Positions 6,116-49,874 of a stretch of DNA of 64,000 nt are shown here, piece by piece. This stretch comes from Chloroherpetonaceae bacterium (GTDB lineage Bacteria > Bacteroidota > Chlorobiia > Chlorobiales > Thermochlorobacteraceae): assembly GCA_033763895.1 (NCBI GenBank), contig JANRJQ010000010.1:314146-378145 (forward strand), read 5' to 3'. Made by a program: the position numbers and the translations under genes. The notes under the pieces are model-generated. The model worked only from the letters and a program-made list of their open reading frames with translations. It did no database searches and was not told where the DNA came from. Every line of letters begins with the position of its first letter. Position 1 is the first letter of the stretch.

Positions 6116-7138
6116 TTAAACCCGATGGTTTTGGATACGATGTTGCGTACTTCCAAATATGACATTACGAGTAGGTTCATTGGTGAGAAAATCGTGCGGA
6201 AACCCTAATTCAATTTTGCTGATATCGTTGAGCTTCGTCATCAACTCAGGTGGAATGACCACACCGAGTGTTTTAAGGTTGTCTTCAAGTTGCTCGGCAC
6301 TTCTTGCGCCGATAATCGGAATCGTTTGTTGATTATTTTGACGAGACCATTGAATTGCCACTTGTGCAGGAGATACGCCTAAAGTTTCGGCAACTTCTAA
6401 AACAATGGTAGCGATTGAATTGGCTCGATCGCTTCGCCTTGCGCTGTGTGTCGGCACGCGTCCCGATTCCCCTTTAAGGTATTTTCCCGTTAGTGCCCCT
6501 CCGCCAATTGCTCCCCAAGGTGTTACAGCCATATCGAAGGCTTTGGCCATTGGAAGTAAATCACGTTCAGGTGTGCGTTGCAGCAAACTATATTCAATTT
6601 GCAAGGCAATAAATCTTGACCATCCCCGTAAATCTGCCATTGTGTTTAGTTGTGAAACAACCCAAGCCGGTGTATCGGAGATACCGATGTAGAGAACGGA
6701 GCCATTGCGAATTAAATCGTCAAGCCCTCTAAGAACTTCTTCAACTGGTGTTGTGAAGTCCCACGCGTGAACCCAAAGCAAATCAATGTAATCAGTGCCT
6801 AAGCGTTTCAGGCTATCGCGAACAGATCGCATCATGTTTTTTTTATGATTTCCCGAAAAAGATGGATCTCCTTGGCGGTCAAAGAGTGTATATTTTGTGG
6901 CAACGACAAATTTATCGCGGTCGTGTTTAATGAATTCACCGAGCCATTTTTCACTTGTGCCTTCGGTGTATCGATTGGCAGTATCGAGAAAGTTACCATC
7001 TGCTTTAACATAAGTGTCGAAGACTTTTTTTGAAGTTTCATAGTCGCTGCCCCATCCCCATTCTGTTCCAAAAGTCATCGTACCTAAAGCAAATTCAGAA
7101 ACACGAAGTCCTGATTTTCCGAGAAGTTTGTAATTCAT
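6116..7138 (-). CDS. Aldo/keto reductase
   Basis: A 340-residue NADPH-dependent oxidoreductase with a TIM-barrel fold. The catalytic tetrad is visible: Asp and Tyr in FLDTANRY, Lys in VVATKY and His in LLWVHAWD. The late cofactor motif is present as IPIIGARSAEQLEDN. The sequence resembles the YajO/Tas branch with the N-terminal phrase LGKSGLRVSEFALGTMTFG. I chose ATG 7138, which starts the first beta-hairpin (MNYKLLGKSG); the open frame continues to a TTG at 7171 that would add only 11 unlikely residues. It stands alone and diverges from the GH13 gene across about 54 bp. The substrate is not predictable. Confidence 0.9.
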   Translation of the reverse strand: MNYKLLGKSGLRVSEFALGTMTFGTEWGWGSDYETSKKVFDTYVKADGNFLDTANRYTEGTSEKWLGEFIKHDRDKFVVATKYTLFDRQGDPSFSGNHKKNMMRSVRDSLKRLGTDYIDLLWVHAWDFTTPVEEVLRGLDDLIRNGSVLYIGISDTPAWVVSQLNTMADLRGWSRFIALQIEYSLLQRTPERDLLPMAKAFDMAVTPWGAIGGGALTGKYLKGESGRVPTHSARRSDRANSIATIVLEVAETLGVSPAQVAIQWSRQNNQQTIPIIGARSAEQLEDNLKTLGVVIPPELMTKLNDISKIELGFPHDFLTNEPTRNVIFGSTQHRIQNHRV

Positions 7139-7192
7139 TTGAATTTGTGTTGCTTCGTTTCTAAAAACCAAGTTATTTAATTAATCAAATTT

Positions 7193-9073
7193 ATGGCTAT
7201 TGATTGGAAAGAAACCATATTTAGTGATGGGTCAGAAAATTTTATTATCCCCCAAAATCCCAAATTGGGTGAAGATATCAAAATTAAACTTAGAGTTTGG
7301 GTACATGCGCCAGTTGAACGCGTCTTTTTAAGGCTTGCACCGGAGGGAGAGCAGTATTTGGAAGAAATGCATGAAGAGCAAGAGCAAGATCACTTCTTTA
7401 AAACTTTTTCTGCCAAAGTGAAAATTCCAAGTCGAATTTTGAAATATCGATTTATGATTTACACGAAAGAGGAAGGAAAAGCATATCAATATTGGTATAA
7501 TCAAACGGGTTTGAAAGACTTTCATCCAACGGATGAGCGCGATTTTACAGTGATTTCAGATTTTGAAAATCCGGATTGGGCGATCGATAGCATTTTTTAT
7601 CAGATCTTCCCTGATCGCTTTTATGACGGCAACTCTGAAACCAATGTTCAAACCGGAGAAATTAAACATCCACATTTCACCTCACGAGCGCGCAAATGGG
7701 GCGAGCTGGACATTACTTGGTATGATTTTTTTGGAGGAGATCTTGAAGGCATCCGATTGAAGATTCCATACCTCAAAGACCTTGGGATTGGGGCGCTTTA
7801 TTTAACACCCATTTTTACTGCGCCAAGTAATCATAAATATGATACCAGCGATTTCAAAGTGGTTGATCCTCACTTTGGAACCAATGAAGCTTTTGCTGCG
7901 CTGGTTGAGGAATTGCATCGAAATGGGATACGAATCATTTTGGATGCAGTCATTAATCATATCGGAAGCGGTCACCCTTGGTTTAATAAGCATCAAGAGT
8001 ATCCGGTCTCCGGAGCATTTTCTGATCCGCTGCATCCCAATCGTGAATTCTTTATTTTTAAGAATAACGATTATGTCTCTTGGCAAGGGTATGATACGCT
8101 TGTGAAATTAGACTATCGTTCTGAAAAATTGCGCGATGAAATGTACCGTTTACCCGATTCGGTGACCCGCTTCTGGCTTCGTGAACCCTATAATATTGAT
8201 GGTTGGAGAATTGATGTCGCAAACATGACTGCTCGTTACGAACATGTTCAACTTCACGGAGAGGTTTGGGAAGAATTTCGAAAGTCGCTAAAGACTGAAA
8301 AAAGGGATTGCTATCTCTTGGGCGAAACATTTTATGACCCAAAGGAACTTGTTAGCGATGCACGGCTCGATGGCGCAATGAATTACGCAGGTTTCCGTAA
8401 ACCCCTCATTAAATGGTTGAAGGGTGAAGAATATGCTCACGATGCCACTTTCCATAATGGGTTTAAGTTTCAATTTTCGTTTTCTGCTAAGCAAATGATG
8501 AATCAATTGGAAGAGTTTCGAACCTCGCATGCGTTTCAAAATCAACTCTTGATGTATAATCTGCTTGATTCTCATGATAGTGAAAGATTTATGCATACCA
8601 TTCATCAAGACATGAAACGCTTTAAGCTTGGGGTGCTTTATCTCTTTTCATACATCGGAATAACAGGTATTTATTACGGAGATGAAATTGGAATGACCGG
8701 CGATCGCGACCCCGACTGTCGCCGCTGTATGGAGTGGAATGAAGAAAAATGGAACCTTGAAGTCAGAGCATTATTTAAGAAGTTGATCGACGTAAAAAGA
8801 AAGAGCAATGCATTGAAACGGGGATCTATTCAATGGATTTATGCTGACAATCATACTTTGGCTTATGCGAGGTTTAGTGGTAATGAAATTTTGGTGGTTG
8901 TTCTCTCGAATGCAGAAAAACCTTATACGGTGGTATTTCCAATTTGGAAGCTTGGGGTTACAAATGGGGAATTGGAAGATTTAATAAATGGAGAAACATT
9001 TAAAATTTACCGTGGTGAATCAATGATTGAATTGAAGCCTTGCTCGGGATATCTCTTTACGGTGAAAACATAA
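7193..9073 (+). CDS. GH13 alpha-glucosidase, maltodextrin glucosidase/neopullulanase type
   Basis: A 626-residue enzyme that cleaves alpha-1,4 (perhaps alpha-1,6) links in maltodextrins. An N-terminal beta-sandwich (about 1-120) precedes the (beta/alpha)8 barrel, which opens with SIFYQIFPDRF. The catalytic residues are the nucleophile D341 in GWRIDVANM, acid E378 in LLGETFYDP and D462 in LLDSHDSER. The phrases PIFTAPSNHKYDT and YYGDEIGMTGDRDPDCRR are close to E. coli MalZ and neopullulanases. There is no signal peptide, so it should act in the cytoplasm, for instance on storage glycogen. No ribosome site is seen before ATG 7193; the upstream sequence is A/T-rich. It is monocistronic and converges with the DUF58 gene. 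Confidence 0.93.
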   Translation: MAIDWKETIFSDGSENFIIPQNPKLGEDIKIKLRVWVHAPVERVFLRLAPEGEQYLEEMHEEQEQDHFFKTFSAKVKIPSRILKYRFMIYTKEEGKAYQYWYNQTGLKDFHPTDERDFTVISDFENPDWAIDSIFYQIFPDRFYDGNSETNVQTGEIKHPHFTSRARKWGELDITWYDFFGGDLEGIRLKIPYLKDLGIGALYLTPIFTAPSNHKYDTSDFKVVDPHFGTNEAFAALVEELHRNGIRIILDAVINHIGSGHPWFNKHQEYPVSGAFSDPLHPNREFFIFKNNDYVSWQGYDTLVKLDYRSEKLRDEMYRLPDSVTRFWLREPYNIDGWRIDVANMTARYEHVQLHGEVWEEFRKSLKTEKRDCYLLGETFYDPKELVSDARLDGAMNYAGFRKPLIKWLKGEEYAHDATFHNGFKFQFSFSAKQMMNQLEEFRTSHAFQNQLLMYNLLDSHDSERFMHTIHQDMKRFKLGVLYLFSYIGITGIYYGDEIGMTGDRDPDCRRCMEWNEEKWNLEVRALFKKLIDVKRKSNALKRGSIQWIYADNHTLAYARFSGNEILVVVLSNAEKPYTVVFPIWKLGVTNGELEDLINGETFKIYRGESMIELKPCSGYLFTVKT

Positions 9074-25286: not shown

Positions 25287-26438
25287 TTAAATTTTCCAAC
25301 TCATTACATACTGTTCATCGTCGAAAAGAGCAGCTTCTTTCGTCAGAAAGAGAGGTCGAAATGTATCAACCATCACTGCATATTCTTTGGTTTCCTTTGC
25401 GCCAATACTTTTTTCAACCGTGCCGGGATGCGGCCCGTGCGGAATCCCGCCCGGATGCAAAGTCAGAGAAGCAGTATCGATACCTTTTCTACTCATAAAA
25501 TTTCCATCCACGTAATATAGGACTTCGTCCGAATCAATATTACTGTGGTTATAAGGCGCCGGTATTGCAGAGGGATGGTAATCGAAAAGCCTTGGAACAA
25601 AATTACAAACCACCATTTGTGAAGTTTCAAAAACTTGATGAACCGGAGGCGGCTGGTGAATTCTTCCCGTAATCGGTTCAAAGTCGTAAATGCTAAAAGC
25701 ATAGGGATAATAAAATCCATCCCAACCAACAACATCAAATGGATGACGGTCGTAATGAAATCGCGCGTAAAGCAAACCTTTTTTTACTCGGATTTCAAAA
25801 TCTCCTTTTTCTTCACGTGCAAGAAGAGATTCGGGTGGGCGAAGATCGCGCTCGCAAAATGGGCTATGCTCCAAAAGTTGCCCGAACTCATTTCGGTAGC
25901 GTTTGGGTGTTTGAACAGGAGCAAGCGACTCAATAATAAAAAACCGATGGGGTACATCGGCAAACTTGAATTGATAGGTTACTCCGCGAGGAATAACCAG
26001 ATAGTCGCCCTGTTTATAACGGAGTTTACCTAAGAGCGTATCCAATTCACCCTCACCCTCATGAACAAAAAGAATTTCATCGGCACTTCCATTTCGATAA
26101 AAATATTCCATCGAATTTTCGGGTAGAGCAATTGAGATAACGATGTCGCTATTAAAAAGAATCGGTGTTCGAGCGGCAAAAAAATCACCACCGCGCTTTG
26201 CGGATTTCATTCTTAAATGGTGATGGCGAAGCCGCTTCTCGTCCCAAGGGTCAAGTTTTAAAACTTCTGTTGAGCCGAGATCAGTAATATTTGTTGGTGG
26301 TGCCAAGCGATAGGCATTTGTATAAACACCGCTAAACCCTTTGGTGCTCATCAATTCCTCGGCATAAAGCGATCCGTCAGGCTTTCGAAACTGAACATGT
26401 CGTTTATGTGGAATCTCGCCAAGTTTGTGATAAAACAT
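25287..26438 (-). CDS. hmgA: Homogentisate 1,2-dioxygenase
   Basis: A 383-residue cupin-type non-heme iron enzyme that opens the ring of homogentisate with O2 in tyrosine and phenylalanine breakdown. The C-terminal active-site block LHPGGIPHGPHPG and the Fe-binding region YHPSAIPAPYNHSNIDSDEVLYYV (start quoted only in part: residues around 292-315) are clear. The protein is shorter than human or proteobacterial forms (about 430-445), mostly from gaps in the N-terminal half. The next enzymes, maleylacetoacetate isomerase and fumarylacetoacetase, and the preceding HPPD are not in this window. It is the first gene of a ten-gene run. Confidence 0.92.
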   Translation of the reverse strand: MFYHKLGEIPHKRHVQFRKPDGSLYAEELMSTKGFSGVYTNAYRLAPPTNITDLGSTEVLKLDPWDEKRLRHHHLRMKSAKRGGDFFAARTPILFNSDIVISIALPENSMEYFYRNGSADEILFVHEGEGELDTLLGKLRYKQGDYLVIPRGVTYQFKFADVPHRFFIIESLAPVQTPKRYRNEFGQLLEHSPFCERDLRPPESLLAREEKGDFEIRVKKGLLYARFHYDRHPFDVVGWDGFYYPYAFSIYDFEPITGRIHQPPPVHQVFETSQMVVCNFVPRLFDYHPSAIPAPYNHSNIDSDEVLYYVDGNFMSRKGIDTASLTLHPGGIPHGPHPGTVEKSIGAKETKEYAVMVDTFRPLFLTKEAALFDDEQYVMSWKI

Positions 26439-26493: not shown

Positions 26494-29400
26494 TTAACGA
26501 AGAATAAGTAGTTTTTCTAATTTTTCTGCATGAAAGGCCCCATCATTGGCATGAAGGGTAACTTTGTAAAGATAAACGCCGTTTGCAAGTTCATTGCCAT
26601 CGGTATCGCGACCATCCCACTCGATTTTAACTTGCGACCCACCCGAGACAAATGGCGAGTCGATTGCTTTAAGCAACCTCCCCGAAACGGAATAAATTCG
26701 AATCGTAGCGGTAAGTGAAGATGAAACCGGTGCATTATGAGTGAAAACGAAAGCAGTAGTACTTCTAAATGGGTTTGGATAATTATAGACCGCAAAAAGT
26801 GAAGGTTCAGAAGAATTCTGAACCGTAAAATTCAGAATGCGCTCGGAGGAATTATTGAATGTATCCCAAACCTTGAACTTGAGTTCGTATTTACCATCGA
26901 CGAGATTTTTAAGCGGGTATCGAACCGTGCCATCGGTAAAGCTTTCCGGGGCAGATTGAAAAAATTCATTTAAGATGACGGGATTGCGTTCATCATTATT
27001 AAGTACAAGAGATATTTCTTGACCCACGCGTTGTGTGAGGTTGATTCCGTTGGGGTCTGAAACTGTTGCCAAGAAAACCGGATTTTGAGAAACTAACCCA
27101 CCTGAAACAAAGCCGGGTTCATCAAATGAGACTTCAATAAATGGACCCTCGGTATCTGCGGTAGCGTTGCTATTGGTTCCAAACAAGCGAATCTGATTAA
27201 AAAAGCCTTGCGCGTTTTGGTTGAGTAAATTGCTTTGTGAATTGGCAGATTCTTGCCAAGCGGTGAGTGAAATTCGTCCTGTTCGAAGCGAATCGTAACT
27301 GATGTTTTTTGGGATTACAAAGTTAACCCGAAACTTCCCATTCTGAATATTGACAGTACCCCGATAAATGGCGGCGTTTTGAACCTCAAAGAAACTATCA
27401 AAACTGCCTGCGGCATTGTTATCTGTTCCAAGCTGGCGTGAAGCGTCGAATACAACAATTGAAGCTTTCCCATTAAATCCGGTTGAAATGGTGGAATCGA
27501 TGTTGCGAATTGACCCTGAAATCGTTGCTCTTCCTAAAGCAGGAAGATTGATTACCCCTATTGGCGTGGGTGAAGTTGAATTAATCGAATCAATCGATGC
27601 TGTAATTCCACCGCCCACCAATCGCAACGCCGGGTCACCCAAAAGAAAAAACTTTTCAATATCATTTAAAAATCCGCTTGCATATAGACTAGACTTGAAT
27701 CGAAAGAGAATTTCGCCTAAAGTAAAATATTGAAGATTTGAATCGCGCTCAAAGATTGAACGGAATAGAATAGGCGGATAAGCGGAACCACTTGAAATTA
27801 GGATTGAGCGGCTATTGGTGATTAAAGCGATTGCGCCACCATCTTGAAGGAGAAACATCGCCTCGCCACCACTTTGTGAATTCGGGTCGTCGGCCCGTCC
27901 AAAGTCGCAAGTGGCAGTAACTGCCAGCGTCATTCTCTTACGATTTGAAATTAAAGGTAGTGAAAATGAGGGTTCAAAAATTCGCTCTGCTGTCCATACC
28001 GTTGGATTGCCGTGACCGATGTAATTCGTGGCGACGGCACCCAAGTTAATTTGACGAATGATTTCATTGAAAGCGTCGGGACGGCGAAGTCCGCCGGTGG
28101 AGCGCTCAAATCGATAAAATCCTGAATACACTTTCACAGGATTCATATAGGGTGCGGTTGTTAGCATTTGGCTGATGGTGAATTCGCTATCAAAACAGAA
28201 GCGATTCCCATCATTTCCTTCATTGCCATTTGGGCCATCATCAGCAACAAAAATTGCACGATTTCGCCAATCCCCTTGGTCTGAGGCGGTTTCATATTCA
28301 ATGATTTTATCAACAGCAAGCGCGGCATTCGAAGCTGTTTGAACAGTAATTCTCCCTATTGCAAGATCCGGGCGAATATCTTCACCATCAACGGCAACAA
28401 AAAAATCGTCGGTTGTTTGAATTTGATTGGTGTAACTAAAAAGGTTTTCTTCTGTTTGATGTGTTGGCACTTTTGAATAACCTGCGCCCAAAATATTGCG
28501 AGGATCCCAATCGCCATCGCCAAAAAGGAGAACGTGCTTGGGTTTTGCAGTTTCGCTTGGGGCATTGTCATAAAGAAACTTCACAAAATCTCTTATGGCC
28601 GTGAAATCTTGCTTACCCCCCGAAAATTCGTTAAAGATGGATTCAACCGAAACCGTTATCCCATTCAGCGCTTCAGCTCCCCATAGTGTCCGGTTTGAAC
28701 GATAGTCGCGAAGTCTCTCTGCTGCCGCTTCGAAATCCTTCCCATAAACAATGATGTAATTTGGATAAGCTGATTGAGAAAGCAAAGAGAGTCCCTTTAA
28801 ATTTTGATTAGCAACTGCACTGGCAGAGACTGGCCGTTTAAAGGAAATACCATCTCCGAAATACACATATTCACGGTAGGAATTCAGGAGTGATGTTGCT
28901 CGAAAACTCAAGACGCCTGAATTAAAAGTCGTTCCAGTTAGAGCAGTGATTTCAGATAAATTTGTGATGTCCCAAATTGTGCCGGATTGAGAAGCATTTC
29001 TCACTCGGTATTCAACAATGCCCGAAGCGGTTTGTCCGGTTAAAGAATTGAATTTCAGAAACCCGTTTCTTGCTTCGATTCCACGCCAGTATTGTAATTC
29101 TGCCCAGTCAGGATAGAATGTTGAAGCTGAATTTGAAGCGGAAAAATCAAGATCAAGCCTTGAGGTTTCACCGGTTATTCTGGTGGCATCAACAGTTGCA
29201 TTGAGATTAAGCAAGGTTGATTCTTGATAAAATCCGCTTGGTTGAAATACGGATACTTGTCTGATTTGACGGCCATTTTCGGTTAGGGTAAAGAGTTCTG
29301 TCTGGCGGCTTTGTGCTACGGCGCGAACTCGGTAAGTAATGGGTCGATTGCGATCAATCCCCTCTGCAGATATGGTATAGGTTTGCCGCGAAAGTGTTGA

Positions 29401-30714
29401 ACTTAAAGCACGGTCATAAAAATTTAGGCTGGTGTTAGCAAAATTCACACGGTCGTTCTCTACAAAACTTAGGGTTTGAAACGATTCCGGACTTGAGATG
29501 GGATTGCCGGTTTCTGAAGGCAAAGATAAAATCCTTTTTCCATCCTCTCCCTCAGTTGAAAGAAAAGCAAAAGCTGAATTCGATTGACGATTCAAGTAAT
29601 GTGAAAGTTGATTGTTTCTGAAAACAAAACCCGAAGCACCTGTTGCATAAAACAAAATGGCATCACCATCATCAAACCGTCCATCACTTTCTCCGGTAAC
29701 AAGGATGGGGATTTCACGCAAATCTTGAATTCGTGAAGTGTTTACTTTTAGATCAAGTTCTTCGGCACCATTGAAGTAAATCTTGAGTTTCCGAGGATTT
29801 AAGCCGGAGGTAGAAATTCCAATGGATTCGAGATAGGCTCTATCTAAGCGATAAATACCTTCCTCCCGAAGCTCTAAGCGAACGAATCTTCCTGTTTTTA
29901 AGACGCTTTCCCGAAAGGTGTTTTGAAGTTTTGGGATGGAGAATCGGTTGATAACGCCATAGTTAAGAAATTGAGAAAAGAAGTTGTGCTCACCTTTCAC
30001 TTGTTGCGAAGAGCGATTAAAAAAAGCATTTGTAGGAGGTGAATCAACGGTGGCGTAACGGATTTTGAGTGTGATCCTTTCAATTTTTTCTAAAGTTTTT
30101 CTTTTAGGTGAAAATCGCAAAGGAGAGATGATTACGCTTATTGACGGGTATCCACGAACGATTTCAACCTTTCCAACTTGAACCGGTGAAACAAACGACT
30201 CCAAATTGTATTTATTTCCTTGGTTGTAAGAAATAGAGCCACTTTTAAAATTTTCAAATGGAATCGGAACAAGTGTTGTGTTTTGAAGGGAAACAGATTT
30301 TATTTCAAGAATCTCAACTGTTGGATTTGCCATCGAAGGTAATAAAAGTGGGACGATACGGCTTGGGGATTTTGGGTCACCGGGCTCACCAAGTGTGACA
30401 CCATTGAGAAATTGATACTCTTGAAATGTAACTCCCCCCGATTGAATAATTGTGGCTTGACCATTCTTTTCCCATTGAGGGATAAATGAAAAAATGATTT
30501 CGTTTTGATTTTGAGAAAGAACCGTGATGTCTTTAGTTGAAGCAATCTTTGGCTGTGAATATGCGGTATGACCAAAAAGAAAAAGGATGGAAAAAAGTAA
30601 TCGGATTGAATCAAAAAATTCAACTGAATTGATGTTACAATGACGAACATCATAACGAATTCGATAGATAAAGTCTTTGAATTTGAAAAGGGAGAAATGG
30701 CACAGAACGGTCAT
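26494..30714 (-). CDS. porU: Type IX secretion system sortase PorU (peptidase C25)
   Basis: A 1406-residue exported protein. PorU cuts the C-terminal signal from T9SS cargo on the cell surface and attaches the cargo to lipopolysaccharide. The C25 (gingipain) catalytic pair is visible as His901 in NYIGHGNPTVW and Cys936 in VTATCDFGRADDP. A signal sequence core lies near residues 38-53 (LLFSILFLFGHTAYSQ), after an unusually long N-terminal stretch; ATG 30714 is the only ATG before it. The C-terminus has a T9SS/FlgD-like beta domain beginning YNYPNPFRS and ending GVYLYKVTLHAND. It is longer than the Porphyromonas protein (about 1160). It diverges from bciB, and 55 bases separate its stop from hmgA. 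Confidence 0.92.
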   Translation of the reverse strand: MTVLCHFSLFKFKDFIYRIRYDVRHCNINSVEFFDSIRLLFSILFLFGHTAYSQPKIASTKDITVLSQNQNEIIFSFIPQWEKNGQATIIQSGGVTFQEYQFLNGVTLGEPGDPKSPSRIVPLLLPSMANPTVEILEIKSVSLQNTTLVPIPFENFKSGSISYNQGNKYNLESFVSPVQVGKVEIVRGYPSISVIISPLRFSPKRKTLEKIERITLKIRYATVDSPPTNAFFNRSSQQVKGEHNFFSQFLNYGVINRFSIPKLQNTFRESVLKTGRFVRLELREEGIYRLDRAYLESIGISTSGLNPRKLKIYFNGAEELDLKVNTSRIQDLREIPILVTGESDGRFDDGDAILFYATGASGFVFRNNQLSHYLNRQSNSAFAFLSTEGEDGKRILSLPSETGNPISSPESFQTLSFVENDRVNFANTSLNFYDRALSSTLSRQTYTISAEGIDRNRPITYRVRAVAQSRQTELFTLTENGRQIRQVSVFQPSGFYQESTLLNLNATVDATRITGETSRLDLDFSASNSASTFYPDWAELQYWRGIEARNGFLKFNSLTGQTASGIVEYRVRNASQSGTIWDITNLSEITALTGTTFNSGVLSFRATSLLNSYREYVYFGDGISFKRPVSASAVANQNLKGLSLLSQSAYPNYIIVYGKDFEAAAERLRDYRSNRTLWGAEALNGITVSVESIFNEFSGGKQDFTAIRDFVKFLYDNAPSETAKPKHVLLFGDGDWDPRNILGAGYSKVPTHQTEENLFSYTNQIQTTDDFFVAVDGEDIRPDLAIGRITVQTASNAALAVDKIIEYETASDQGDWRNRAIFVADDGPNGNEGNDGNRFCFDSEFTISQMLTTAPYMNPVKVYSGFYRFERSTGGLRRPDAFNEIIRQINLGAVATNYIGHGNPTVWTAERIFEPSFSLPLISNRKRMTLAVTATCDFGRADDPNSQSGGEAMFLLQDGGAIALITNSRSILISSGSAYPPILFRSIFERDSNLQYFTLGEILFRFKSSLYASGFLNDIEKFFLLGDPALRLVGGGITASIDSINSTSPTPIGVINLPALGRATISGSIRNIDSTISTGFNGKASIVVFDASRQLGTDNNAAGSFDSFFEVQNAAIYRGTVNIQNGKFRVNFVIPKNISYDSLRTGRISLTAWQESANSQSNLLNQNAQGFFNQIRLFGTNSNATADTEGPFIEVSFDEPGFVSGGLVSQNPVFLATVSDPNGINLTQRVGQEISLVLNNDERNPVILNEFFQSAPESFTDGTVRYPLKNLVDGKYELKFKVWDTFNNSSERILNFTVQNSSEPSLFAVYNYPNPFRSTTAFVFTHNAPVSSSLTATIRIYSVSGRLLKAIDSPFVSGGSQVKIEWDGRDTDGNELANGVYLYKVTLHANDGAFHAEKLEKLLILR

Positions 30715-30885: not shown

Positions 30886-32181
30886 ATGCCGCCATATTCC
30901 CAATTTCCCAATAAAACCAATGGTGATAAAGACTATTCGCCTGTGAAAACACTCATCCCCAATAAGCCAAATGAAACACTTTGCAGCAGTTGTGGGCTTT
31001 GTCATATCAGAACTTGGCCTGTAAAGGAAAGCTTTGAAAGTTGTGTTTTTGAAAACGGATGGCTTTCGGGTGAGGCTCAGCTTTTTGGGCGAAGTCGATC
31101 ACTTTCTGATGAAAAGGGCAATCAAGATGAATTGCGTTTTGGAATTTATAAGAAGCGCTTTATTGCCAGAATGAAAAAGCCGGTTGCAGAATCTCAATGG
31201 AGTGGGATCATCACCTCAATCGCGACAAAGGCACTGAGCTCAGGACTTATCGAGGGTGTGGTAACACTTCACAGAAGCAAAGCGGATTTCTTTTTCCCGG
31301 AACCTGTACTAGCCACAAACCTTGAGGATATTCAAAAAGCAAAAGGAAATAAACCGGTGATTTCACCCGTATTAAAGAGCCTCGAAACGGCTTACGAAAA
31401 GGGGTTCAAAAAATTACTTGTTATCGGTGCAAGCTGTCATATTCATGTCTTGAGAGATTTTCAAAAACGACATCCTTATCTCAGAGACATTGAAATTTAT
31501 ACTGTAGGTATTCCCTGTGTGGATAACATCAAGCCAAAAAATCTTCGGTGGATTCTTTCAAAAATTTCCCACAACCATCAAACGGTCAATCATTATGAAT
31601 TTATGCAGGATTTCACGGTTCACTTAAAGCATCACGATGGCGAGTTAGAAAAAGTTCCTTATTTCAGTTTACCTCAAGAATTAACCCAGACCGATGTTTT
31701 TGCTCCAAGTTGTCTCTCATGTTTCGATTACTTTAACAGCCTTTCTGATATTACGGTAGGTTATGCCGGTGCACCGCTTGTGGGAAATGAAAAGCTTCAA
31801 TGGGTATTTCTTCGAACTGAGAAAGGTGAAGCTTTATTGAATCTCATTGAAACTGAATTGGAGATTTTTCCGGAAGTAAGTGGAGGGAATCGAAAAGAGG
31901 CTGTGAAAGAGGGAATTAAAGCATTTATCAATCGATTACATTCAGATAAAATTGAATCGGGAAGAAAAATACCGATTTGGGCGGGGATGCTGCTCGCAAA
32001 ACTCTTTCAAAAAATCGGGGTGAAAGGGGTGGAATTTGCTCGGTACTCAGTGGATTATCATTTAATTCGAAATTATTTTTTCGTGAAAAAAAATTATCCC
32101 GAGAAATTGAAATCGCTTATCCCGCCAAATGTCTATGTGATTTTGAAGGAATACGGCTTTGAGAATGAAAAAAGCTCCTAA
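30886..32181 (+). CDS. bciB: 3,8-Divinyl (proto)chlorophyllide 8-vinyl reductase, BciB type
   Basis: A 431-residue iron-sulfur flavoprotein of the FrhB/FdhB C-terminal family. BciB uses reduced ferredoxin to reduce the C8 vinyl group in (bacterio)chlorophyll synthesis. Cluster Cys: C33, C36, C39 in LCSSCGLC and C52 in ESCVFENG. The internal run HYEFMQDFTVHLKHHDG, then EKVPYFSLP and FAPSCLSCFDYFNSLSDITVGY, is strikingly like cyanobacterial and green-sulfur BciB, which sets it apart from F420-reducing hydrogenase or dehydrogenase subunits. The start has AAAGGAG upstream of ATG 30886. No other pigment gene is adjacent; hemL lies 20 kb away. It converges with the PyrK-like gene. Confidence 0.82.
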   Translation: MPPYSQFPNKTNGDKDYSPVKTLIPNKPNETLCSSCGLCHIRTWPVKESFESCVFENGWLSGEAQLFGRSRSLSDEKGNQDELRFGIYKKRFIARMKKPVAESQWSGIITSIATKALSSGLIEGVVTLHRSKADFFFPEPVLATNLEDIQKAKGNKPVISPVLKSLETAYEKGFKKLLVIGASCHIHVLRDFQKRHPYLRDIEIYTVGIPCVDNIKPKNLRWILSKISHNHQTVNHYEFMQDFTVHLKHHDGELEKVPYFSLPQELTQTDVFAPSCLSCFDYFNSLSDITVGYAGAPLVGNEKLQWVFLRTEKGEALLNLIETELEIFPEVSGGNRKEAVKEGIKAFINRLHSDKIESGRKIPIWAGMLLAKLFQKIGVKGVEFARYSVDYHLIRNYFFVKKNYPEKLKSLIPPNVYVILKEYGFENEKSS

Positions 32182-32215: not shown

Positions 32216-33007
32216 TTAATCAAACAAAATTTCTCTTGAATCGATAACGCTGCCGTATTGGCATAAAAGTTTGTAGGTAAAACCTCCGCCGCTCTTAATT
32301 CGAATCGGACAGCCGTAACAAATGCCGATTCCGCAACCCATTGTTGATTCAATTGAGACTTCGCAAGGTATTGAGTTTTCGTTACACAAATTCGAGAGTG
32401 CCGAAAGCATCGGGTTTGGACCGCAAGAAAATACGCGAAGTTTTTCACCGTCAAATTTTGGAAGCATTGAACTAAAGAGTTGAACGCTGTTTCCCTTGAA
32501 TCCCTTGCTGCCATCGTCTGTGGCAACGGAAATATTACTTAGTCCTTTTTCTATAATTTCGGATGCATTTCTTGCGCCAATAATGTTTACTACTTTTTTG
32601 CCAAGCTTAAGAAGGGTTTCTTCTAAAAGAGCCATCGGCGCAACACCAATTCCGCCCGAAATCAAAACTGCTGTATCAAAGTCGTTTTTATCGTAACCAA
32701 AAGTATTTCCAAGTGGGGCAAGCGTTTGCAGCCGGTCTCCTTTTTTGCAACGGTAAATCAGGTCTGTTCCAATGCCAACGCGTTTGCTCATAATTTCAAT
32801 GGTTTCTCCCGAAATGGAATGAATTGAAAAGGGACGACGAAGCAAAGGAGTTAAGCTATCGGAAACCTTGATTTCTAAAAATTGCCCTGCCTTTAAGGCT
32901 TTTGAAAATGTTGGGGCATGAAGCGAAACTACATTTATGCTTTCGGTAAGGTGATGATTTTCAAGGACTTCTAAAAGCTCATCTGTCGGATTAGGCGACT
33001 CTGTCAT
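32216..33007 (-). CDS. pyrK: PyrK-like dihydroorotate dehydrogenase electron-transfer subunit
   Basis: A 263-residue flavoprotein with a ferredoxin-reductase fold: FAD-binding beta-barrel with RRPFSIHS near residues 57-64, NAD-binding domain with ISGGIGVAPM, and a C-terminal [2Fe-2S] site at C225, C230, C233 and C249 (MGCGIGICYGC then LLCQYG). In PyrDB-PyrK enzymes it passes electrons from dihydroorotate to NAD+. No pyrD gene is adjacent, so the assignment rests on sequence alone. ATG 33007 is chosen over a TTG at 33037. Confidence 0.88.
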   Translation of the reverse strand: MTESPNPTDELLEVLENHHLTESINVVSLHAPTFSKALKAGQFLEIKVSDSLTPLLRRPFSIHSISGETIEIMSKRVGIGTDLIYRCKKGDRLQTLAPLGNTFGYDKNDFDTAVLISGGIGVAPMALLEETLLKLGKKVVNIIGARNASEIIEKGLSNISVATDDGSKGFKGNSVQLFSSMLPKFDGEKLRVFSCGPNPMLSALSNLCNENSIPCEVSIESTMGCGIGICYGCPIRIKSGGGFTYKLLCQYGSVIDSREILFD

Positions 33008-33067
33008 GATAAAGAAAATTGATTTGAAAGAGTGCAAAGAAAACCAATTAAACGGGGATAGACAAGT

Positions 33068-35434
33068 TCACTTTTTTGGATTCTGTCTTTGTGGCGGATT
33101 TGATTTTTGCTGAGTTTGAGAAGGAAGAGAAAATAGTGACTTTGATTGAGCGGTATCTGGCGTGCTTCTTTCCGGTTTTGATGGAGAAGAAGGGAGAATT
33201 GCCGGAGAAATTGAACCCGGCGGCTTTACTGAATTTTCCTTGTTAGGTAATGATGAACTTTTTAACGAATCGTTTAATGGAATAAAATTTGGTGCTTTTG
33301 AAGAATCAGAAGAAGTAGGTTTGATTGATTTGCTGCTATCAATTCCATTTAAATAGGCTTCCCAAATCTTCAATTTTTCAGAAATCGTATTGAATTCAGG
33401 TGAATCGGGAAAGCGAGAAGCAAGCAACTGATATTCAGTCAATGCTGAGTCACGATTTCGAAGTTCGGTTTCAAAGAGATATCCTTTTGCTAAAATGGCT
33501 TTGGGAATAAAACTTGATTTCGGAAAAAAAGATTGTAGGGAATCAAGCAATTGAAAAGCTCTTTTTGCATTTCGGTCATTGGTCGCTTCGACTGCTTTGG
33601 CGTATAAAGCCTCGTCAGGCTTGATTTCTGAAAGCATCGGGAGATTATAAAACACGCGTATCCGATTGGAATATCTTCCCTTCGGGTAAGATTTAAGGAT
33701 AATTTGAAACAGAGAATCTTGAACCACTGCGTTATTCATTGAGCGATAAACATCTGAGAGTGAAAAAAGACAAGTCTCTTTAAGGCGTGAAACAGCCATT
33801 GCAAGACTATCCGGAAATTTTCTTTCCTCCTCAGTGCATTTTTTTACTGTAAACTTGTACCAGTAAATCGCAGAATCTGGAATGGGGAGCGTAAAATGGA
33901 AAAATGAAGCAATCTCAGAATAGCGGTTCAGAAGTTCGAATTTATAATTATAAAGTGTTGAAGTATCCGGCGCAGTTTTGTAGGTTTTTCTTTCCTTAGA
34001 TCTCAAAACGAGCTGATTGCCAACGGAAGCAATTTCATTGAACGCATCACGAAAACCCATTGATACAAAAAATGTTCTTCGATATTCAAAGCGTTTACGG
34101 CGATTAAGGAGCGATGAGGTGCCTTGGGTTAGTGCCAAGGAATCTTGAATACGCTTGGCTTCTTTAAGGCTATCGACCATTTTACTCTCTTTCGTTACAG
34201 CAACAACGCCCAATTGTATGGTGCTGTCAAGAGTTCCGATAGTTTCATAGAGCCAAAGAATTTTTTCAACGCGTTCGGAAGCTATTTTCGCTTCTTGCGC
34301 GATTTCGCCTTGTGGGTACTGAACTCGCGCTGTGTCGTAAAGAGCTTTGGCTGCTTCATAATCACGAGAGATTTCTTGGCGAATTCGACCCAACCTAAAA
34401 AAACTCTTTGCAGCAGATTCAGTTCGCGGGCTTTTTCGAATAATTTCAAGATAGAGATTGATTGAAACACCTAAACGCTCAATCTGTGTGTAACACTCGG
34501 CGAGTTCGTAGCGGATATCACCAAATTTTTCGAAGTTCTTATCGTCTCCAAGCATATCCTCAAATACACGGATGGCTTCATCATAGACCTTTTGTTCGCG
34601 GAGATCGATGCCATAACTTAGTTCTGCGGTGTACTTTAAATCAAAATTTGGGTCGAGCGTTAAGATGAGTTTGTACGACTCAGCAGCCTTTTTGAAATCA
34701 CCGATTTGATCATAAACCCGGGCGAGCACAAAAGCTGCTCGTGCACGCAAATCGTAATCTTTCACCAACGGTATTCCCAATTCTATTTGCCTCGTGGTTT
34801 CTGCAAAATCGTTATCGGACAATGCTAACTGTGCTAAGACAAAATGTGCCTCCCCACGAACATTAGGCGAGCTCTTTTCGGATAAAATCACAGAACCTAA
34901 AACTGCTCGAGCTTCTTCAAAAATCTGCATAGCTGCAAGGGTTCTGCCATACCAAAAAGTTGCCTCATCAACAACATCGCCTTCAGGATAATTAGAAAGT
35001 ATTTCCTTAAACTTTCGTTCAGCCGGTTGAAATTCTTTTTGATGGTAGTAAGCTTTTCCTAAAAGAAGGAGCGCATCATCCGAGAGATCGCTTGCTGCAT
35101 GCGCTTGCAATACAATCGAGGTTTTTCGAATGACATTATCAAAAAATTGCTTTCCTGAAGCAGCATTTTCGAGAGATGGAAAAATGGTGAGCTTTGCTTT
35201 TTTTGAATAGTCTTGTGTTGTCCGAATTGCAATAATCCCACGCTCATATTCAAGTTTGGCGTTATGGAAGGCGTTAAAGTAGCCAGTAAAATTATGATAA
35301 ACCTTCCCCATAATGCTGTCATCTGTGCTTTCACAAGACAAGAGAGAGAGAACGAAAATCAAGTAACCTGCTCCCGAATACATTCGAAAAGCATTTTTTG
35401 AAAACCGAGTGTTACAGCGTTTAACTAGATTCAC
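33068..35434 (-). CDS. PorW/SprE-like TPR lipoprotein of the type IX secretion system
   Basis: A 788-residue TPR-repeat lipoprotein. The signal ends with lipobox LSLLSC (Cys near residue 34). The mature start, GKVYHNFTGYFNAFHNAKL, fits the family trait of SprE/PorW, which has HN-T--YN--FN just after the lipid Cys. About ten TPR-like helix pairs follow (ALLLLGKAYYHQKEFQPAERKF and similar), with an unstructured Ser/Pro/Lys tail of about 90 residues. PorW links PorN/M and the Sov translocon and is needed for T9SS secretion and gliding. The start is GTG 35434, favoured because it supplies positive residues before the signal helix; ATG 35383 would leave an acidic-free but uncharged short signal. 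Confidence 0.75.
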   Translation of the reverse strand: MNLVKRCNTRFSKNAFRMYSGAGYLIFVLSLLSCESTDDSIMGKVYHNFTGYFNAFHNAKLEYERGIIAIRTTQDYSKKAKLTIFPSLENAASGKQFFDNVIRKTSIVLQAHAASDLSDDALLLLGKAYYHQKEFQPAERKFKEILSNYPEGDVVDEATFWYGRTLAAMQIFEEARAVLGSVILSEKSSPNVRGEAHFVLAQLALSDNDFAETTRQIELGIPLVKDYDLRARAAFVLARVYDQIGDFKKAAESYKLILTLDPNFDLKYTAELSYGIDLREQKVYDEAIRVFEDMLGDDKNFEKFGDIRYELAECYTQIERLGVSINLYLEIIRKSPRTESAAKSFFRLGRIRQEISRDYEAAKALYDTARVQYPQGEIAQEAKIASERVEKILWLYETIGTLDSTIQLGVVAVTKESKMVDSLKEAKRIQDSLALTQGTSSLLNRRKRFEYRRTFFVSMGFRDAFNEIASVGNQLVLRSKERKTYKTAPDTSTLYNYKFELLNRYSEIASFFHFTLPIPDSAIYWYKFTVKKCTEEERKFPDSLAMAVSRLKETCLFSLSDVYRSMNNAVVQDSLFQIILKSYPKGRYSNRIRVFYNLPMLSEIKPDEALYAKAVEATNDRNAKRAFQLLDSLQSFFPKSSFIPKAILAKGYLFETELRNRDSALTEYQLLASRFPDSPEFNTISEKLKIWEAYLNGIDSSKSIKPTSSDSSKAPNFIPLNDSLKSSSLPNKENSVKPPGSISPAILPSSPSKPERSTPDTAQSKSLFSLPSQTQQKSNPPQRQNPKK

Positions 35435-47867: not shown

Positions 47868-49874
47868 ATGAATTTATTGCATTATTTACCTCACGCATCT
47901 GTACAATCAAGCCCAACCATAAAAAATACAATTGGCGTTTCGAAATCATTTCTGCTCTTGATTTTATTAATTCTTTTTTGTGTAAGGGGTAATGCTCAAT
48001 ACTCAAGTGAAATCGAACCCAAAGAAAAATACTATCAGGTTAAAATCAGCCTTTCTCAATATGGGGTAATGGCTAAGCTTCAAATGATGGGAATTTTGGA
48101 TCATGCAAAACGTGAAGGAAATGCGTTGATTACCGTTTTCTCGGAAAGCGAATTGGAGTTACTTCGTAAGGCTCAAATTTTTTATGAAATCGCTGTTGAA
48201 GACCTTGAAAATTATTATCAACAAAGGGCTTCCGAGGAACTTCAGATTCTAAATGAAAAGGGAAGTAAAGAGTTTATAAGAGGTACATTTAATCAAACAA
48301 CTACACAAGCGCAAAGTATAGTTCCAAAAAAATTTAGACTTGGCAATGTCGGAGGCTTCTTAAGTATTAATGATGTGGCAGCGGAATTGGATTCAATGGT
48401 AGCGAATTACCCAAATTTAATCTCGAAAAGAAGAACACTTGGGAGCAGTGGTGAAAGTCGCCCAATTTGGTATGTCGAATTGGGTTCAGAATCTTCTGAA
48501 GGTAAACCGCAAGTGCTTTATACCGCAATGCATCATGCTCGGGAACCCGGTGGTATGATGGCACTCATCTACTTTATGTGGTGGTTGCTTGAAAATTATT
48601 CAACAGACCCCGAAGCGAAAGCGTTACTTGATTCAAGAAGAATGACGGTTGTTCCAATTGTCAATCCGGATGGGTATGCTTATAACATTCAGAACTCTCC
48701 GAATGGTGGCGGGCTTTGGCGGAAAAATCGAAAAAGAAATTCAAGCAATTCTTTTGGAGTTGACTTGAATCGGAATTATGGCACTTATGATTTTTGGAAC
48801 TCCGCTTTTGGGGGTTCCAGTACATCCCCTTCGAGTGATACCTACAGAGGAACCGATCCTTTTAGCGAACCCGAAACCGCGGCACTTCGCGATTTTATTG
48901 CCATCAATCAATTCAAGGCTGTGTTGAATTATCATACATTCAGCAACCTTCTTATTTATCCCTATGGTTACGCAAGACGTGAAACCCCTGATGCGCCAAT
49001 CTTCCGGGAATATGCAAAGAGAATGACGGAATTCAACGGCTATACTTATGGGCTTGATATTGAAACGGTTGGTTACAACACACGTGGAACATCAGACGAT
49101 TGGATGTACGGCGATTCTCTAACGAAGCCGAAAATGATAGCAATGACGCCCGAAGTGGGTGCACAAAGCGATGGCTTTTGGCCTGTACCTTCAAGAATTA
49201 CAGGGCATTGCCAAGAAAATCTCTTGCCTAATCTTTTCCTTGCTTGGGCTGCTGGGCCTTATTTTGCAACATCTTACGACTATGCATTTATTCCAAAAAA
49301 TACGGTTGTATCCTTGCCCTTTACGATTAAAAATATAGGTCTCGAATCGGGAAAAAAGGTGAAAGTCTCGTTCAATTCAGATAATCTTGGAGTTCAGTTT
49401 TTGAATCAAACAATGGTTTTTGATTCAATTGGTAGTTGGGAATCGATTTTTACAGATGGCATAAAAGTTAAAATTTCATCGTCAATACCTGATGGCCCAA
49501 TGACAATCACAATGAATGTTGCACAAGATGGAGGGTATGTAACATCAGTGCCGTATTCAATAGCATTAGTGACCCCGCTGTCAATTCGTGATGAATATTC
49601 TCAAGTGGATTTTGCTCTTGAACAGAATTATCCCAATCCGTTTAATCCATCAACAATTATCAAATTCAGTATTCCCTCACAAATGCAGGTTCGTTTAGAA
49701 GTTATAGATGTAATGGGAAGAAATGTAGTCACACTTCAAAATGGGTTAATGAGAGCAGGAAGTCACTCATTTACATTTGATGGTTCAAAATATGGTCTAA
49801 CAAGCGGCGTATATTTCTATCGTTTGATAACCAGCGGGTTTCAACAAACTCGAAAAATGATGCTCTTGAAATAA
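47868..49874 (+). CDS. M14 zinc carboxypeptidase with T9SS sorting domain
   Basis: A 668-residue exported peptidase. Signal peptide core is near 27-42 (SFLLLILLILFCVRGNAQ). The catalytic M14 domain (about 150-440) has the zinc motif H223-x-x-E226 (HHAREPGG), a later His in VLNYHTFSNLLIYPYGY and the catalytic Glu in MTPEVG. A linker beta domain follows, then a typical C-terminal type A sorting domain: QNYPNPFNPSTIIKFSIP, GRNVVTL, SGVYFYRL and a terminal KMMLLK. It should pass the Sec system, then T9SS, and be cut by PorU. It is the one clear T9SS cargo in this window. Confidence 0.94.
   Translation: MNLLHYLPHASVQSSPTIKNTIGVSKSFLLLILLILFCVRGNAQYSSEIEPKEKYYQVKISLSQYGVMAKLQMMGILDHAKREGNALITVFSESELELLRKAQIFYEIAVEDLENYYQQRASEELQILNEKGSKEFIRGTFNQTTTQAQSIVPKKFRLGNVGGFLSINDVAAELDSMVANYPNLISKRRTLGSSGESRPIWYVELGSESSEGKPQVLYTAMHHAREPGGMMALIYFMWWLLENYSTDPEAKALLDSRRMTVVPIVNPDGYAYNIQNSPNGGGLWRKNRKRNSSNSFGVDLNRNYGTYDFWNSAFGGSSTSPSSDTYRGTDPFSEPETAALRDFIAINQFKAVLNYHTFSNLLIYPYGYARRETPDAPIFREYAKRMTEFNGYTYGLDIETVGYNTRGTSDDWMYGDSLTKPKMIAMTPEVGAQSDGFWPVPSRITGHCQENLLPNLFLAWAAGPYFATSYDYAFIPKNTVVSLPFTIKNIGLESGKKVKVSFNSDNLGVQFLNQTMVFDSIGSWESIFTDGIKVKISSSIPDGPMTITMNVAQDGGYVTSVPYSIALVTPLSIRDEYSQVDFALEQNYPNPFNPSTIIKFSIPSQMQVRLEVIDVMGRNVVTLQNGLMRAGSHSFTFDGSKYGLTSGVYFYRLITSGFQQTRKMMLLK

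Follow-up and report, generated by a model that had tools for sequence, protein, structure and literature searches.

A bciB gene in a Thermochlorobacteraceae genome with no recognisable E-ring cyclase or protochlorophyllide reductase

The window analysed here, a stretch of 64,000 nucleotides, carries a gene that is predicted to be an ordinary bciB of the chlorophyll pathway. The genome to which it belongs keeps bchH, bciB and bchXYZ, and no known enzyme was found in it for two successive steps of the pathway. The interest lies in this missing E-ring cyclase and protochlorophyllide reductase, whose absence emerged from searches, and in what may have replaced them. We hold with considerable confidence that the gene encodes the BciB of a chlorophototroph of the family Thermochlorobacteraceae, and consider it somewhat probable that the gap in its pathway is filled by enzymes still to be discovered.

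Identification of BciB

The product of the gene (Table 1) contains the Pfam domains FrhB_FdhB_N (67.7 bits) and FrhB_FdhB_C (90.7 bits). Its best match among solved structures was 7-hydroxymethyl chlorophyll a reductase (HCAR, PDB 5dqr; 277 bits, E = 2.4e-81, residues 28-410), followed by the F420 hydrogenase beta subunit FrhB at 67 bits. The protein is 60-67% identical to those of other members of the family and 53% identical to that of a member of the Chlorobiaceae. Matches were found in 57 of 296 genomes of the phylum, the strong ones all within the phototrophic order. All eight cysteines listed in Table 1 were invariant in an alignment of 19 BciB-type proteins and, judged from the sequence, would supply two [4Fe-4S] clusters.

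In a tree of 21 proteins, with few outgroups, the protein grouped with BciB of Chlorobiales and a BciB-like protein of Thiodictyon (support 96/97), and the FrhB-like proteins of Haladaptatus and Parabacteroides fell far outside this clade. An earlier note, made from the DNA letters, had named the gene as bciB from Cys33/36/39 and two sequence blocks, all of which are present in the 431-residue frame, and had proposed such a tree as a check. As the protein did not group with F420-dependent enzymes, that identification stands.

The same evidence bears on the possibility that the protein is a subunit of an F420-dependent oxidoreductase (FrhB/FpoF type) with no role in chlorophyll synthesis. Both Pfam domains are common to the FrhB type and NCBIfam FrhB and FpoF models do match, but far below the equivalog cut-offs (82.7 against 331.5 bits and 68.6 against 475 bits). 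Moreover, the HCAR structure scores four times higher than FrhB, the tree excludes the FrhB-like proteins and the host carries the Bch pathway, making this alternative so improbable as to be negligible.

By homology, BciB would carry FAD and two [4Fe-4S] clusters and, with ferredoxin as its electron donor, convert the 8-vinyl group of divinyl-(proto)chlorophyllide to an ethyl group. This step would feed chlorophyllide a to BchXYZ, BchF and BchC, giving BChl a, and to the branch leading to the chlorosome pigments.

HCAR shares the fold family over 380 residues; unlike BciB, it is a plant enzyme that reduces the C7 hydroxymethyl group. We know of no sign of chlorophyll b in the Chlorobiales. The nearest characterised relative is the ferredoxin-dependent 8-vinyl reductase of Chloroherpeton thalassium, which has been assayed (PMC7242693). 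Genome G005 is probably that of C. thalassium, and its protein (59.7% identity) shares the eight cysteines, the order and the pathway context with ours. The two differ in that our host belongs to an aerobic family without BchE and that its substrate is assigned by sequence comparison.

The BciB-like gene of Thiodictyon, a purple sulfur bacterium, has approximately 37% identity and lies on pTs485, a plasmid that carries photosynthesis genes. It is close to bchI, bchD and bchO, and its sole annotation is as an F420 hydrogenase domain protein.

Table 1 Positions of bciB, its cysteines, its neighbours and other genes discussed (numbers without a locus label, L, are window positions)
Feature	Position	Strand	Evidence or remark
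bciB, predicted ferredoxin-dependent C8-vinyl (proto)chlorophyllide reductase, 431 aa	30886..32181	+	PDB 5dqr match; Pfam FrhB_FdhB_N/C; tree
Cys33, Cys36, Cys39, Cys53 (first cysteine cluster)	30982..31044	+	invariant
Cys184, Cys211	31435..31518	+	invariant
Cys276, Cys279, within block FAPSCLSCFDYFNSLSDI	31711..31722	+	invariant; aligned to 5dqr
'hmgA', 383-aa cupin protein	25287-26438	-	56.4 bits; homogentisate dioxygenase cut-off 510.75
porU, type IX secretion sortase, divergent neighbour of bciB	26494..30714	-	NF033707, 922.7 bits; cut-off 420
PyrK-like FAD/NAD/[2Fe-2S] electron-transfer protein, convergent with bciB	32216..33037	-	NF000799, 155.7 bits, under cut-off 314; PF10418
PorW/SprE-like TPR lipoprotein	33068..35434	-	NF052312, 189.8 bits, under cut-off 250
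Putative M14 protein	47868-49874		T9SS-like type A C-terminus by pattern
bchX, own genome	L160:9028-10488	+	C-terminal extension, PF08281, 30.4 bits
Split Mg-chelatase H, own genome	L162:8170-10611	-	
Split Mg-chelatase H, own genome	L161:8775-10220	+	
Split BchH genes, G133	L163:7550-9967 and L164:6544-7935		
CarH-like regulator adjoining pscA	L209:12044-13027	-	MerR type, two B12-binding domains
bchNBL cluster, G125	L171:2483-11197		flanked by PucC-like MFS transporters and bchJ (147 bits, cut-off 74)
Broken bchL, G268	L242 (G268:C1) 6699-7530		two frames
BciB-like gene, Thiodictyon pTs485	L197:6007-7251		

Genomic neighbourhood and type IX secretion

No conserved neighbours of bciB were found across genera, and in relatives no copy of the PyrK-like gene adjoins bciB. 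Since the neighbourhood varies in this way, the PorU and PyrK-like neighbours carry no functional message.

The earlier note had read a type IX secretion system (T9SS) and oxygen-using enzymes from the window. PorU scored well above its cut-off, TIGR04183 matched its C-terminus, and the putative M14 protein has, by pattern, a C-terminus like the type A sorting domain of T9SS cargo; the PorW-like protein is a homologue that falls short of its model's cut-off. The supposed hmgA is a cupin protein with no more than remote kinship to the homogentisate dioxygenases, so that the evidence of oxygen use drawn from it fails, and the supposed di-iron hydroxylase is a member of the fatty-acid-hydroxylase family whose likeness to OlsE is weak. 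By pattern, 10 of the 824 frames examined, PorU itself included, have a T9SS type A sorting domain.

When 61 Chlorobiales genomes were searched, PorU exceeded its cut-off in all 12 outside the Chlorobiaceae and in none of the 49 Chlorobiaceae, one of which matches the model in its sorting-domain part only. This distribution indicates that phototrophy with T9SS is a trait of the clade and not a peculiarity of this genome. A 2016 survey found T9SS restricted to Bacteroidetes (PMC4793230) and later reviews extend it to the wider superphylum (PMC11205867). An aerobic Chlorobiota phototroph with T9SS, as judged by PorU, had been called unusual, but it is not so for a genome of this family, which has been described as aerobic.

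The host as a chlorophototroph

The genome, which is 99% complete in 14 contigs, contains BchH (1489 bits), BchX (400), BchY (533), BchZ (605), BchC (311) and BchF (190), all above curated cut-offs. It also contains pscA, whose product is 69-86% identical in relatives. A lack of all other bch genes, which the earlier note had named as a refutation, is thus not seen: of its search list bchF, bchX, bchY and bchZ are present. Part of the set forms a bchFCX cluster, an arrangement known from Chlorobi and Chloroflexi (PMC13025772). Together, bchH, F, C, X, Y and Z and pscA identify the host as a chlorophototroph with a type-1 reaction centre, and judged from these genes it would make (bacterio)chlorophyll.

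By relatedness the host belongs to Thermochlorobacteraceae, a lineage described as aerobic photoheterotrophs (PMC4161750, PMC9342728). One relative, GBChlB (Ca. Thermochlorobacteriaceae bacterium, JPGV01), is an aerobic, photosynthetic member of the Chlorobi with fmo and with bacteriochlorophyll and chlorosome genes (PMC4161750). It is represented in our set by G133, which was assigned to the window's family and whose bciB contig equals JPGV01000040. Its bciB product is 65% identical to ours, and dark-operative-type protochlorophyllide reductase (DPOR; BchN, BchB and BchL) and BchE are absent from both genomes. It differs in belonging to another genus and in having only a split BchH.

Three further observations concern these pigment and reaction-centre genes. 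A Mg-chelatase H paralogue in our genome is encoded by two separate genes that lie far apart, corresponding to BchH residues 1-786 and 824-1271; the split form is the sole BchH in G133 and G268, and probably also in G296. BchX has a long C-terminal extension, conserved among family members, that ends in a helix-turn-helix resembling Sigma70 region 4. Finally, a CarH-like regulator lies beside pscA at every locus read from Thermochlorobacteraceae and its sister family (also L210, L211, L212 and L213), which suggests that the reaction centre is regulated by light or B12.

Two missing steps

Genomes were compared between Thermochlorobacteraceae (f1), its sister family (f4), Chloroherpeton-type organisms (f2) and Chlorobiaceae. 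The cyclase BchE (TIGR02026, cut-off 481) scored no higher than 92 bits in any of the ten f1 and f4 genomes, ours included, and more than 750 bits in the five Chlorobiaceae and f2 genomes searched. AcsF (TIGR02029) was found in none of 15 Chlorobiales genomes, a known Roseobacter AcsF giving 523 bits as the positive control. With both absent, no known E-ring cyclase remains in the f1 and f4 genomes. A 2026 paper also reports AcsF missing from Chlorobi and assumes that BchLNB is present (PMC13025772).

Two radical SAM proteins that score weakly with the BchE model were considered as cyclases and rejected. The first, of 467 residues, has orthologues of 60-63% identity in genomes that do bear BchE, including two in one Chlorobium-type genome (BchQ/BchR-like). 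The second, of 547 residues, has a 59% orthologue in G005.

For DPOR, a search of our genome with PF00148 yielded only BchY and BchZ, and with PF00142 BchX was the only close match. BchN, BchB and BchL were likewise absent, with BchX, BchY and BchZ alone remaining, from seven of the ten f1 and f4 genomes: our own, G133, G079, G233, G284 and G297 (Thermochlorobacteraceae) and G276 (f4), two of the seven being incomplete assemblies. The three proteins are present in genus g3 (G125, G268 and G296) and in Chloroherpeton-type and Chlorobiaceae genomes. The light-dependent enzyme LPOR (TIGR01289, cut-off 331) exceeded its cut-off in none of 41 Chlorobiales genomes, the best score in ours being 63 bits.

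Gaps in assembly or binning might be suspected, as every genome is a draft and several are incomplete. Our own is nearly complete, though, and BchE is missing from ten and DPOR from seven of ten independent genomes in which BchX, BchH-type proteins and PscA were nevertheless found, so that an artefact of this kind is extremely improbable.

The double absence is not mentioned in the literature searched; Liu et al. 2012 and one 2017 review lay outside that search. The former, reportedly the first account of Ca. Thermochlorobacter aerophilum, may itself deal with the missing genes.

In a tree built from BciB, BchX and PscA, f4 was sister to Thermochlorobacteraceae (support 100/99) and g3 fell inside the family, whose internal branching is without resolution. 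In g3 the DPOR genes are in the order N-B-L, as in the Chloroherpeton-type genomes, and BchN and BchL are approximately 72% identical to theirs. Horizontal gain was considered and discarded, since this arrangement and similarity are consistent with vertical descent, the probable origin of DPOR in g3. Read together with the tree, this implies a single loss of BchE ahead of the f1-f4 divergence and at least two subsequent losses of DPOR. That DPOR was lost repeatedly suggests that the common ancestor already had a substitute. In G268, which retains DPOR, bchL is broken into two frames; this may be DPOR in the course of being lost, or a sequencing error.

Filling the gap

If synthesis is de novo, the chemistry of DPOR or LPOR and of BchE or AcsF is still required, and none of the four was detected in our genome. 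Either two enzymes still to be found, probably oxygen-tolerant, carry out these steps, or the cell imports a late precursor of the pigment.

In the case of uptake, chlorophyllide or chlorophyll a would be salvaged from mat cyanobacteria and converted by BchXYZ, BchF and BchC. Both middle steps could then be lost without any need for new enzymes, and relatives do share hot-spring mats with cyanobacteria (PMC5459899, PMC11788075). On the other hand, our genome retains a full-length bchH, G133 and G268 retain it as two conserved split genes, and f4 keeps bchD (equivalog, 642 bits). Furthermore, bciB, which would be superfluous for monovinyl precursors, retains all its cofactor cysteines in every aligned BciB row. 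Salvage is thus rather unlikely. BchM and BchI were not found within the 1.02 Mb (29%) of our genome read base by base, which took in most of contig C4; the gene searches reported above extended to the rest of the genome.

A second alternative is that BchXYZ (COR) reduces both protochlorophyllide and chlorophyllide in the genomes without DPOR. COR is homologous to DPOR, is known to reduce the 8-vinyl group as a side activity (PMC7242693) and comprises the sole nitrogenase-like pigment enzymes left. However, BchX is 66-75% identical to our protein whether DPOR is present or not, with no sign of acceleration, and the missing cyclase would be left unexplained. We regard a dual role for COR as distinctly unlikely.

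It was also considered that a short-chain dehydrogenase (SDR) resembling retinol dehydrogenase had become a light-dependent protochlorophyllide reductase by convergence. The best SDR of our genome matches LPOR structures at 65 bits, and a 335-residue SDR of f4 finds plant POR as its best solved structure (76 bits). With the LPOR model, though, the scores are 63 and 87 bits against the cut-off of 331, generic SDR models fit better, and the clade has no single highly conserved orthologous family, identities to our protein being 36-48%. The LPOR-like SDRs were therefore rejected as substitutes, and convergence of this type is very unlikely. An SDR beside bchH was rejected too, being a generic SDR in a position that is not conserved.

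The explanation that we favour, and consider somewhat probable, is de novo synthesis with a cyclase and a protochlorophyllide reductase that are not homologous to the known ones, are probably oxygen-tolerant and would date from the ancestor of f1 and f4; BchE would then have been lost once and DPOR repeatedly. The more general proposal is that f1 and f4 make BChl de novo with an E-ring cyclase and a protochlorophyllide reductase that each represent a third class, are probably oxygen-tolerant and replace BchE/AcsF and DPOR/LPOR; this we judge to be evenly balanced.

Conclusions

The gene in the window is predicted to encode the 8-vinyl reductase of a pathway in which the two steps missing from the genome would be carried out by new enzymes. 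This makes for a compact gene hunt: the protein sought would occur throughout Thermochlorobacteraceae and its sister family and be missing in Chlorobiaceae. Metagenomic surveys that use bchL or bchN as markers of phototrophy would overlook such organisms. For the family itself, the finding points to a way in which oxygen could have been accommodated by a pigment pathway that is strictly anaerobic.
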